Of a stretch of DNA of 64,000 nucleotides, positions 12,710 to 61,571 are shown piece by piece. Where the stretch lies: NCBI GenBank assembly GCA_003645255.1, contig QNES01000001.1, positions 1 to 64,000 of the forward strand, in the 5' to 3' direction. The notes beneath the pieces were generated by a model. The model did no database searches and was not told the DNA's origin. It saw nothing but the letters and a program-made list of their open reading frames with translations. The stretch is from Gammaproteobacteria bacterium (GTDB lineage Bacteria; Pseudomonadota; Gammaproteobacteria; Beggiatoales; Beggiatoaceae). The position numbers were made by a program, and so were the translations under genes. Position 1 is the stretch's first letter, and the number at the start of each line of letters is the position of its first letter.

Positions 12710-12742
12710 AAACCTGTCAGGTATTCAAAACCTGACAGGTTT
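12710..12742. repeat. Palindromic repeat, family 2, between recA and recX
   Basis: AACCTGTCAGGTATT / CAAAACCTGACAGGTTT, a member of the CCTGNCAGGTTTT family also at 42902, 47070, 57398 and 62961. In the recA-recX message it would form a hairpin followed by few U residues, so attenuation is possible. Confidence 0.8.
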
Positions 12743-26177: not shown

Positions 26178-26251
26178 TGGTAGGTCGGGTTAGTAACCCG
26201 ACATTTACCTGACGAAATAGTATGGTAGGTCAGGTTAGCTAACCCGACTTA
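26178..26251. repeat. Two tandem copies of dispersed repeat family 4
   Basis: TGGTAGGTCGGGTTAGTAACCCGAC at 26181-26205 and TGGTAGGTCAGGTTAGCTAACCCGAC near 26222-26247. Each is a small hairpin with GGGTTA/TAACCC arms, and both are preceded by ATAGTATGGTAGG-type sequence. Confidence 0.7.
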
Positions 26252-26334
26252 CTTGGTTTTCACCTTTCAAAATAAATAAATTATATCATCGTTTCTAAAA
26301 ATTAGAGCCTGACCCCTTTTCTAGGATAAATATC

Positions 26335-28300: not shown

Positions 28301-28344
28301 TTTCACGCAAACGTTTTTGCAGCCGCAAAAACGTTTGCGTGAAA
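28301..28344. repeat. Perfect 44-nt palindrome before the DUF6079 gene
   Basis: Arms of 20 bases (TTTCACGCAAACGTTTTTGC and its exact reverse complement) around the loop AGCC. It sits between two pieces of TAACTGA-type sequence and ends 12 bases before ATG 28357. Its inner part AACGTTTTTGC resembles AAAGTTTTTCC of the palindrome at 60330, with matching changes in both arms. It could sequester the start region in mRNA. Confidence 0.95.
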
Positions 28345-57240: not shown

Positions 57241-57595
57241 TATTGGAATATTGGTATCTATCTTTGACTGGTTTATTTGATGTAGCTTAAACAGTTAAAG
57301 CTTTGACTTTTATGTAGGGTGGGCAAATTTTTGCCCACCCAATTTTAAAAAAATTTACCATTAGTAATATATAGATGTTCAGAAAAATAATTTCTTACCT
57401 GCCATGTTTTGGAAACATGGCAGGTTTTGTGAAGTTATTGATGTGAAAAACTATACATAAAAAAGCAAGCTGTTTATATTGTTATAAAGCTGAAATAACG
57501 CTTGATAAATGGATAGTAAGCTAGGCAATGTCCCCATCATAGTTCATCCTAACATTTTGAAAAATTCGTTCCTCAATCCATTGTACTTTTAAAAA
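57241..57595. other. Intergenic region with several dispersed repeats
   Basis: No gene seen. It contains a hairpin GTAGGGTGGGCAAATTTTTG/CCCACCC at 57314-57340, which could terminate the hfl operon, the ATTAGTAATATATAGATGTTC AGAAAAATAATTT element (57360-57393), and a family 2 palindrome variant at 57398-57427. It is the left boundary of the island before purA. Confidence 0.6.
57398..57427. repeat. Palindromic repeat, family 2 variant
   Basis: ACCTGCCATGTTTTGGAAAC then ATGGCAGGT: both arms carry the C-to-T / G-to-A type change relative to the family (CCATGTTTT), so pairing is kept. Confidence 0.8.
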
Positions 57596-59179: not shown

Positions 59180-59475
59180 AGACACAAAAGTTTTTTTATA
59201 ACGACTCAGGGCAATCTTCAGTGCAAGCAATCCCTTGCTCAAGCCCTGAGTAGTTACCGTTTTTTACATTTTATTCACAGACGTTTTTTGGAAAAACTTG
59301 GTTTTTTACAGGTATATTATTTTTTTTTGCTTTTATAGTTGTTCAGATAAATAATTTCACAAATATTGTTTGACTTTAAAAATTAGAACACCAAATTTAT
59401 AATAAATCCCTTCTTTTAAATCCCTTCTTATATACAATCCTTGTAGTTATTGTTGGAAGAATAAAAACGCCGATG
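59180..59475. other. Intergenic region after the methyltransferase
   Basis: Contains a family 3 element (ACTCAGGGCAATC ... AAGCCCTGAGTAGTTACC, 59203-59258) whose ends are inverted, CTCAGGGC/GCCCTGAG, and a TTTTTTGGAAAAACTTGGTTTTTT region at 59286-59310. A TTCAGATAAATAATTTCAC element is at 59342-59360. No gene seen. Confidence 0.5.
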
Positions 59476-59509
59476 AGAGAAAAAATTATGGCTAAAAATC
59501 TTGTAGTCA
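59476..59509 (+). repeat. 34-bp direct repeat, left copy: duplicate of the purA start
   Basis: AGAGAAAAAATT ATG GCTAAAAAT CTTGTAGTCA matches 61645-61678 at 32 of 34 positions. The right copy contains the real purA ribosome site and first codons. The left copy supplies the start of the broken AAA gene. Confidence 0.9.
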
Positions 59510-59945
59510 AAAGCTTGAATATAGAAAATTTTACGCTTTTTGAAAAGGAAAACTTAAATTTTTCGAGTGGTTTGAATATCATTATCGGTGAAAATGATAC
59601 TGGCAAAAGCCACCTACTCAGATTATTATATTCTTTAATTGAAAGTAATAATTTCGTTATCCTAGAAAAAGCTGATAATAAAAGGTACTTGTTACAAAAG
59701 TCTATTCCACAAAAATTAATTGATATTTTCAAAACTGAAAAATTAGCGCATTTAATTCAAAATGGGCAAGACAAGTGTCATATAAAAATTAACTTGACTA
59801 AATACAACATCAAGTTTAATTTTACCCAAAAAACTAAAATTCAAGTCAATATTAACAAGAATGATGTACCAGCGAGATTCATTAAACAGTTGACATTACA
59901 AACCAAAACCCCTAAAATAACAAAAACGATCAAAAAGGTTATTCG
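59488..59945 (+). pseudogene. 5' part of an AAA ATPase gene, interrupted by an IS607-family element
   Basis: From ATG 59488 the protein reads MAKNLVVKSLNIENFTLFEK and continues with 'LNIIIGENDTGKSHLLRLLYSLIE', a Walker A motif (GENDTGKS) of the SMC/RecF/OLD-type ATPases. After about 135 residues (NDVPARFIK, near 59890) the sequence runs into transposon DNA, and the frame stops at 59970. The other part is seen at 61351 (SLFIPTKEMLSFYEG). ATPases of this type, often with a TOPRIM domain, are common in defence systems. The first eight residues copy the start of PurA, so the present start was probably gained by recombination. Confidence 0.75.
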
Positions 59946-60548
59946 ATGTATAAGTCAACTGGTTTTTTAGCAAAAGAATATTCCGTCACAAATGAAACTA
60001 TCCAAAATTGGATAAAGGAGGGTAAATTTGACAAAATCAAGAAGACAAAAGGAGGGCATTACCGGGTATGGATTGAAGAACCAATTGTCACTATTCTGTA
60101 TGCAAGAGTCTCAAGTGCCAAACAAAAAACTTCTCTGGCAAGACAAGAACAATTACTCAAAAACAAATATCCAGAAGCAACGTTTATCTCTGACATTGCC
60201 TCCGGCTTCAACCAAAGTAGACGAGGTTATAAAACCATTTTGGAGTCCACTATCAACGGTAATCCACAACATCTTGTGGCAACCACATCAGATAGAATTA
60301 CCAGAACCGGCTTTCAACTCATCAAATGGGATCGAGGATAAAGTTTTTCCGTTGGAAAAACTTTATCCTCGATCATTGAATTACCGGGTGGAAGTGTCGA
60401 ACTTTTGGAAGAAGCAGATAATTCCGAACAATTTGACACCAAAACCCTTATTGCTTTCATTACAAGCTTCATCAACTCCCACTATGGAAAGCGAAGCGCA
60501 AGTAAACGTAATAACAAGCAAAAAAATAAGAATTTACCCAAAATATGA
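59946..60548 (+). pseudogene. tnpA: IS607 TnpA serine recombinase, interrupted in frame by a palindrome
   Basis: An N-terminal MerR-like DNA-binding domain (STGFLAKEYSVTNETIQNW) is followed by the serine recombinase domain with the catalytic Ser in 'LYARVSSAKQK' and 'DIASGFNQSRRGYKTIL', 'TTSDRITRTGFQLIKW'. After TGG at 60327-60329 a 45-nt palindrome follows, giving DRG and TAA. Directly after it the frame resumes with IELPGGSVELLEEADNSEQF and runs to TGA 60546-60548 (end LPKI). Without the 45 bases the protein would be 185 residues, normal for the family. So it is broken by a precise in-frame insertion. Confidence 0.85.
60330..60374. repeat. Perfect 45-nt palindrome inserted in tnpA
   Basis: Two 21-base arms, starting GATCGAGGATAAAGTTTTTC and exactly complementary, around loop GTT. 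It interrupts tnpA between Trp and Ile codons. Its length is 15 codons, so the frame is kept, but codon 4 is TAA. The inner part AAAGTTTTTCC resembles AACGTTTTTGC of the palindrome at 28301. Confidence 0.97.
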
Positions 60549-61350
60549 AACTTTATGGTTTGATTCTCTTAATTTATATCGTCGAGCTTATAACTTGACA
60601 ATTGAATTTAGAACTCAAATCTGTGATTGGTGCAGAATAGAATGTGAAGATAATGACGTTACATTCAATTGCAATTTGATTCAAGCGGCTTATCGTAAAG
60701 CTTGTGACACTCGTACTACTGTTATCAAAAAAAGAGTTAACGGTGAAAAAGCTGAGTTATCATTTATGTCAAGAATGGCTCCTCATCAATATTTTGTTGC
60801 ACCAAGATTATCAGCTAAAAAACAAATTTTCCCAAATATATTAAAGGGTTGCACTTGGACTGAAAAAGTCCCAGAAGATGCGATTGGTAAGACCGTAATT
60901 GTTACTTATACCAACGGCCAATGGTTTGCAAATGTTAAATTTATTCAACCAATACAACAAGTAGCAACTAAAAAATTATCTATGGTAAAAAAAAGTGACG
61001 AGACTCGGAAACGATTCATTAGGCGTAAAACTGTAAGGGGCATGTTAGGTTTAGCTCACTATAAATTTAAACAAACTTTAAAGTGGATGGCTAAGAAATA
61101 TGGTAAAACTGTAGTGGATGTTAATGAATCTTATACTTCTAAAACTATGTGGAATGGTTCAATTCTCAAAAACTTGGGTGGGAAAGCTTCAATTCTTTTC
61201 CAAGGTAAGAGAGTGAATCGAGATATACATGGTGCTAGAAATATTTTGATTCGGTTTTTAACCAAGGTGATAGAAATTTTATCACCCCGGGGAGCTTACC
61301 CCCTAGACATAACCAAAGCCGAATTTTGTGGTTTTGGCGTTTTTCAGTAA
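60484..61350 (+). pseudogene. tnpB: IS607-type TnpB with the central RuvC segment missing
   Basis: I start it at ATG 60484 (MESEAQVN), overlapping the tnpA end by 65 bases as is usual. The 288-residue product has the N-terminal TnpB part ('YPKYETLWFDSLNLYRRAYNLTIEFR', 'APHQYFVAPRLSAKKQ', 'NGQWFANVKFIQP'). After QQVATKK it jumps to 'SDETRKRFIRRKTVRGMLGLAHYKFKQ' and 'VNESYTSKTMWNGSILKNLGG', 'NRDIHGARNIL'. The stretch with the first RuvC motif (ALDPG type) and the acidic second motif is absent, so only the last Asp (RDIHGARNI) remains. The Cys of the TSKTC motif is Met. It is most likely an inactive nuclease; about 120-150 residues are lost. Confidence 0.75.
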
Positions 61351-61571
61351 GAGGATAGTTTATTTATTCCAACTAAAGAAATGTTATCTTTTTATGAAGG
61401 CTTAGATGATTTAGTCATTTTAGATGAAAATTTAGATCAAAGTGATAGATTTATGAAGAAGACTTAAACGACATGCAGATCATTGAGGGAAAATTAACAT
61501 TTCATTTTGATGCACATCCTAAAGTTGTGTCTAAAGACAAATTACAAAATTTACCTTGGATGGTAGAATAA
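61351..61571 (+). pseudogene. 3' remains of the interrupted AAA gene, frameshifted
   Basis: Right after the tnpB stop, DSLFIPTKEMLSFYEGLDD is typical of the region that follows the Walker A part in OLD/AAA-type ATPases. The frame ends at TAA 61465. From 61452 another frame reads YEEDLNDMQIIEGKLTFHFD and 'KVVSKDKLQNLPWMVE', stopping at 61569-61571. The middle and the Walker B parts are missing, so the gene has suffered deletion and frameshift besides the IS insertion. Confidence 0.6.

Follow-up and report, generated by a model that had tools for sequence, protein, structure and literature searches.

The window analysed here, 64,000 nucleotides of DNA from a member of the Beggiatoaceae, contains a decayed copy of an IS607 element whose tnpA gene is interrupted by a perfect palindrome (Table 1). 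The part of tnpA upstream of the in-frame stop matches Pfam Resolvase (PF00239, E 7e-13), and the gene shares approximately 30% identity with plasmid-borne annotated IS607 transposases, which places it in the IS607 family; a Resolvase-type catalytic domain followed downstream by tnpB, with its Cas12f1-like TNB domain, is the arrangement expected of that family. The gene has no second copy in this draft genome (G000, 4.41 Mb), in which tnpA is probably dead or dying.

Table 1. Features of the interrupted IS607 copy and its surroundings in the window
Feature	Position	Strand	Remarks
Open frame with the 5' portion of the AAA-ATPase gene that the IS607 copy interrupts	59473..59970	+	
Decayed IS607 copy, approximate extent	59885..61354	+	inserted in AAA-ATPase gene
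IS607 tnpA (serine-recombinase transposase), interrupted	59946..60548	+	in-frame TAA 60339-60341; frame reopens, TGA at 60546
+1 frame continuous with tnpB, open across tnpA and palindrome	60028..60483	+	reads IEDKVFPLEKLYPRS at palindrome
Perfect palindrome, GTT loop	60330..60374	.	CGAGG-hairpin family member; 39-nt core 60333-60371 plus 3 paired bases per side
Net insertion, 42 nt more than in empty sites	60330..60371	.	one-base (G) boundary ambiguity
tnpB (Cas12f1-like TNB domain)	60484..61350	+	internal deletion of ~320 nt, without DPGVRTF region, relative to L170-L176

A preliminary description of this DNA had reported a 45-nt palindrome with 21-base arms and a GTT loop lying in frame within tnpA and containing TAA. 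An inverted-repeat check returned exactly these coordinates, with arms at 60330-60350 and 60354-60374 that are complementary at 21/21 nt (100%) and separated by 3 nt (GTT); the feature ranks first among the close inverted repeats of the 64-kb window. With up to 3 mismatches allowed the arm has two matches in the window and none in 100 shuffles, and the palindrome with its surroundings (111 nt), folded as RNA, reaches -46.7 kcal/mol (z = -6.1). Position 60330 begins a codon in the tnpA frame read from 59946 onward, and the stop falls at codon 132. An assembly artefact, the alternative raised at the time, is excluded because two independent assemblies have a palindrome at the identical site.

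Empty and filled alleles of the tnpA site

Homologues of tnpA were taken from the same bacterial family and aligned. The empty allele, found in an intact tnpA of Thioploca sp. CSMAG_545 (L100/L061/L170), reads AAATGGATTATTG-AA at the site, and several Thiomargarita and Parabeggiatoa copies have this sequence or one near-identical to it. The ATC at 60372-60374 is the host trinucleotide and the GAT at 60330-60332 is its reverse complement. Three of the 45 palindromic bases are already present in the empty sites, which brings the net gain down to 42 nt. The insertion is precise, as originally proposed, while the proposed length of 45 nt has to be given up; removal of 45 nt would cost one native Ile codon.

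Comparison of tnpA alleles, which had been suggested as a check, also revealed filled sites in two Thiomargarita relatives. A 42-nt insert lies at exactly this position in Candidatus Thiomargarita nelsonii (L091/L171) and in Thiomargarita sp. RS_2_10 (L101/L175). The hairpin might have been a normal part of intact tnpA genes; instead it recurs only in copies that carry a stop, and the intact close copy is without it. The arms of the RS_2_10 insert (GGAGAATG..CATTCTCC) differ from those of the window (GGATAAAG..CTTTATCC) by a concerted change in both arms. The 7-nt loop of RS_2_10, reversed, is CCGTTGT as compared with CCGTTGG in the window, and is absent from every other copy in the catalogue of 131. 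Since the reversed window loop is unique to the RS_2_10 tnpA copy, the two inserts probably represent a single ancient insertion. The RS_2_10 tnpA contains three palindromes in total.

The phylogeny of the element is less decisive. The IS607 tree gave a support of 83 to a topology requiring one loss or two gains, with L170 not firmly placed, and the tree of tnpA alone leaves the position of this insertion-free copy unresolved, such that monophyly of the insert-bearing IS607 copies is not established by the IS607 tree. These copies occupy different loci in three species; they therefore moved by themselves or in trans, or else insertion into the site happened repeatedly, and both movement in trans and recurrent insertion at the tnpA site are possible.

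Other tnpA copies of T. nelsonii (L090, L092, L093, L094, L098, L173 and L176) have additional short inserts of a 21-nt type (CAACCGAAGGTCAGCGAAGCT), a 27-nt type (CTTCGTTACGTTACTTCGTTT) and, nearby, 42 nt. These inserts, which have lengths divisible by three and often introduce stops, group at LIK-W-IIE and EQF-DTK.

A dispersed family of CGAGG hairpins, between and within genes

The window hairpin is one of dozens to hundreds of copies across Thiomargarita and related giant sulfur bacteria. A genome search allowing up to 3 mismatches found related arms at other sites, one of them within a tnpB gene, and the family consensus is TTTCGAGG-(5 variable)-GTTTTT-loop-AAAAAC-(5 variable)-CCTCGAAA. 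Copies were counted in 58 genomes with a covariance model trained on 22 of them. This genome has at least ~60 distinct places (118 matches, since nearly every place is counted once per strand). High copy number is found here and in six further Beggiatoaceae genomes, with at least ~100 matches each in G000, G001, G002, G018, G019 and G034 and 73 in G036. Eight genomes of the family have 2-18 matches, for an overall 15 positive of 37; among the matches listed, none fell in the 22 remaining family genomes or in the 21 genomes of other families in the same class. An exact-pattern scan of IMG/VR for viral spread of the palindrome gave no match. The copies lie mostly between genes and some within genes, and across 131 catalogued copies the pairing runs on for three bases past CGAGG and breaks off abruptly at the next. 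The search of this genome and related Beggiatoaceae that had been recommended therefore yielded both relatives of the 21-base arm and covarying versions, and the many dispersed copies and precise insertion agree with the earlier idea of a mobile-like hairpin class in this family.

Together the results make it likely that the hairpin is a dispersed palindrome of ~43 nt that entered an ancestral IS607 tnpA, adding 42 nt, and that TnpA now ends at codon 132. The family would have multiplied in Thiomargarita and related Beggiatoaceae.

Additional palindromes were observed in the window. A second dispersed family (AGAAATCCGATTTTTT..AAAAAATCGGATTTCT) occurs at 298, 8385, 12205, 15681, 20778, 52060 and 54705, and a third, AAACCTG(A/C)CAGGTTT, at 12710, 42901, 47068, 57397 and 62964, often with CGAGG hairpins directly adjoining. 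A further palindrome (TTTCACGCAAACGTTTTTGC..GCAAAAACGTTTGCGTGAAA) at 28301-28344 of the window and at 882-925 of L009 has a CGAGG-like architecture with a different arm sequence.

Genic copies were classified by hand, with gene names read from translations and the window's own genes identified by family search. Insertions that are in frame and open were found in IscB (L034), a methyltransferase-like gene (L037), an IS5-type transposase (L107) and at L203:768, L204:658 and L215:1298. Those in frame with a stop are tnpA sites 1 and 2 and tnpB (L006), and those out of frame are L108, L112, L202, L203/L204/L206, L215:1004 and the N-terminal insert of L175. A universal in-frame rule is rejected, since six of the genic copies shift the reading frame. 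Lengths divisible by three account for 9 of the 15 genic insertions and for 6 of the 29 non-genic ones (Fisher P = 0.012, a small, hand-classified and post hoc comparison). This bias fits the survival of tolerable insertions, as with Rickettsia palindromic elements (RPEs), in that surviving genic copies would be biased to tolerable lengths and frames. IscB-like genes in two genomes hold a CGAGG hairpin, in frame as VSRFKFFEEKLKPR(K) in one (L034, 7-1047) and out of frame in the other (L112).

At the window locus a second frame is affected by the insertion. The tnpB frame, which is +1 relative to tnpA, is open for ~150 codons upstream of the tnpB start in 9 of 9 close copies, L170-L176 among them; in this set an 8-nt indel changes the register of L176 at its beginning, and L177 is incomplete. 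About 7 stops are expected from codon usage in that stretch, and none of 5000 simulations and none of 209 control segments was free of stops. A candidate TTG start at 60028 follows a Shine-Dalgarno-like AAAGGAGGG. All inserts leave the +1 frame open, even where tnpA gains stops. Among the copies examined the frame is also open in several relatives of 40% identity and in a Trichormus copy, and L082-L085 and L221 are further loci that show it; it is not open in the IS607 elements ISChh1, Peptoclostridium and Methanocaldococcus. The 42-nt insert in tnpA likewise leaves the overlapping frame open, and the +1 frame may be what made the insertion acceptable. It could encode an extended TnpB or an overlapping gene. 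In L176 (2491-4249), the N-terminal helix-turn-helix of TnpA is joined to the tnpB frame by an insertion of 8 nt, which creates a single open frame of ~586 codons.

RPE-like insertion into genes had been offered as a precedent, and it is seen in the IscB, methyltransferase-like and IS5 genes. The corresponding explanation, that the window hairpin is a coding palindrome tolerated as a translated extra peptide, here in the overlapping tnpB frame and not in the tnpA frame, is possible although doubtful. It draws on the open in-frame insertions in these and other genes, the excess of genic lengths divisible by three, the RPE precedent itself (PMC10969869) and the opening of the tnpA insert in the tnpB frame. 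Yet the insert has a stop in the tnpA frame, six genic insertions disrupt the frame of their gene, the majority of copies are intergenic and translation of the tnpB extension is only putative. Furthermore, the size and peptide-ORF features of RPEs are not found in this 43-nt palindrome, in which five arm bases vary.

Insertion, upkeep and the fate of tnpA

The arms of the hairpin change in concert. In an alignment of 22 sequences, 95.9% of cells were paired and covariation was 0.333, as opposed to 0.070 in shuffled alignments and no more than 0.118 in slid ones. The pattern used for the 131-copy catalogue leaves five arm positions free, and these variable positions pair in 120-131 of the 131 copies, with 0-1 G-U pairs each. 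The loop occurs in either orientation at the same flanks (L187/L205, L207/L213, L189/L194 and L183/L186), and in L105/L180 a base change in both arms took place at the same site. Template switching between inverted repeats is documented to yield homogenised arms and inverted spacers (PMC8604942). Polymerase template switching between the arms would likewise keep the complementarity and flip the loop; the near absence of G-U pairs suggests such a process at the DNA level rather than selection on RNA.

Pairs of filled and empty sites contained no direct target duplication, including the target-site duplication typical of MITEs with terminal inverted repeats. The net gain equals the core plus 3 in 16 of the 29 non-genic pairs (+40 for the common 37-nt core), and the tnpA insert has the same geometry (39+3 = 42). 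The flanks of the 131 copies have TT at -1/-2, mixed bases at -3 and G or C at -5 (77%). The hairpin might insert after being captured in single-stranded form, or through a switching event, without a dedicated enzyme; none was identified when the Y1 transposases of G000 and relatives were examined. We propose, as a speculative and rather improbable extension, a mobile hairpin free of any transposase, which would spread by single-stranded capture or polymerase switching and be kept perfect and flipped by template switching. Genes would accommodate its core+3 inserts, with one host trinucleotide complemented, in any frame that stays open, which at this locus is the overlapping extended tnpB frame.

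Mobilisation as a REP/BIME-type element by a RAYT (Y1) transposase is very unlikely, and we reject it. The palindromes are dispersed, and G000 does have three Y1 genes, one of which is an E. coli-type RAYT adjoining a GTAG-type REP. However, no GTAG or GGAG tetranucleotide lies beside the CGAGG hairpins in the flanks of 131 copies, no CGAGG palindrome lies within 2.4-3.3 kb around the three Y1 genes, and Y1 presence is uncoupled from palindrome presence, with 7 Y1 matches and no palindrome in G003. Classical GTAG-type REP-like sequences were observed at 26225-26252 and 57308-57349 of the window and at 901-943 of L169, the last adjoining the E. coli-type RAYT gene.

The insertion had been thought either to have killed tnpA or to be bypassed. 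Of these outcomes the first has gained and the second has lost: most likely, the hairpin truncates TnpA instead of being skipped by translating ribosomes. Truncation is the better reading because the changes private to the window tnpA look neutral and the hallmarks of bypass are absent. Pairwise dN/dS in the tnpA frame among the insert-bearing copies is low (0.14-0.23), downstream of the stop too, which we attribute to shared history preceding the insertion, although the insertion-free L170 has no firm place in the IS607 tree. Private changes were counted at the nucleotide level, where neutrality predicts ~75% nonsynonymous. The ratios of nonsynonymous to synonymous changes are 8:4 in the window tnpA and 16:7 in RS_2_10, both neutral-like (from small numbers), and 5:7 in the intact Thioploca tnpA. 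T. nelsonii L171 has 6:15 upstream of the stop, which is constrained, and 7:5 downstream, which is not clearly so. A codon-level count gave a constrained-looking 2:6 for the window, but that count retains only those codons on which the other three copies agree, and the nucleotide-level count is preferred as less biased.

For bypass to operate, ribosomes would have to jump from TGG onto ATC, or the transcript would have to be processed, so as to make full-length TnpA, as in T4 gene 60 or the yeast mitochondrial byps. The in-frame length of the insert, the tnpA frame intact on either side, the low dN/dS downstream of the stop and the presence, in three species, of IS607 copies that carry the insert and lie at different loci are all consistent with this. 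In T4 gene 60, take-off and landing codons match and a stop adjoins the take-off (PMC5009743). Here the take-off TGG does not match the TCG that precedes the resume codon, and the TAA lies three codons past the take-off. Moreover, other copies of the family frameshift genes, the RS_2_10 copy has N-terminal frameshifts as well, and the private changes of the window are neutral-like. Bypass is rejected as highly improbable on the codon mismatch, the frameshifting siblings and the private changes, branch-wise counts having removed most of the support from dN/dS. A conserved RNA element or terminator selected within tnpA, for which the very stable stem could speak, is the least credible alternative and hardly conceivable, given that an Rfam search of the palindrome returned nothing at gathering score, the U-run after the stem is missing, G-U pairs are nearly absent and the nearest intact tnpA has an empty site.

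Comparison with known systems

The probably truncating insertion of a dispersed hairpin resembles several described systems in part. Like T4 gene 60 and the Magnusiomyces byps, it is a hairpin-forming insert within a gene that contains a stop; unlike them, it has neither matching take-off and landing codons nor an adjacent stop, and it is known here from sequence alone. An in-frame hairpin with a stop thus need not mean ribosome bypass. REP/BIME elements with RAYT are likewise short dispersed palindromes in a gammaproteobacterium, but they have a 5' GTAG/GGAG and a bulged stem, whereas the CGAGG hairpin has a perfect stem and no associated RAYT was found.

Short palindromic repeats are already known in the same group of organisms. 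For Candidatus T. nelsonii, the repeat section of Flood et al. (2016, PMC4853749) describes RepeatModeler consensi as 'typically palindromic', with 15-55 copies each; the likeness to our family is drawn from that description. Insertion into genes, arm covariation and empty sites, which we found for the CGAGG family, do not figure in that repeat description. With a site shared inside a gene, arms that change in concert and a characteristic insertion geometry, the CGAGG family looks like a novel form of a type already described, the distinction from the earlier repeats being drawn from how these are described there. The palindromic elements of organelles (those of Volvox, the yeast GC clusters and the double-hairpin elements) are described as short selfish hairpins without an encoded transposase (e.g. 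PMC2670323, PMC4478555); they differ in residing in organelles, and the likeness is again drawn from their description.

The presence of filled and empty alleles, loop flips and concerted arms in many copies makes the family usable for measuring how palindromes are kept up and enter genes in free-living bacteria. The CGAGG hairpin strikes genes of RNA-guided nucleases (TnpB, IscB) and of their transposases. Hairpins within genes are already established by RPEs, which are ~150 bp in length with a conserved peptide ORF (PMC10969869), and our results would extend the phenomenon of hairpins tolerated within proteins beyond the Rickettsiales. Both kinds of palindrome are dispersed and can lie in frame within protein-coding genes, where they may be translated; for the CGAGG hairpin this concerns part of the genic copies, such as those in IscB and IS5, but neither tnpA nor the frameshifted genes. 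In contrast to RPEs, to which it is likened by description, the CGAGG hairpin is a near-complete palindrome of only ~43 nt, with variable, concerted arms and a mostly intergenic distribution.
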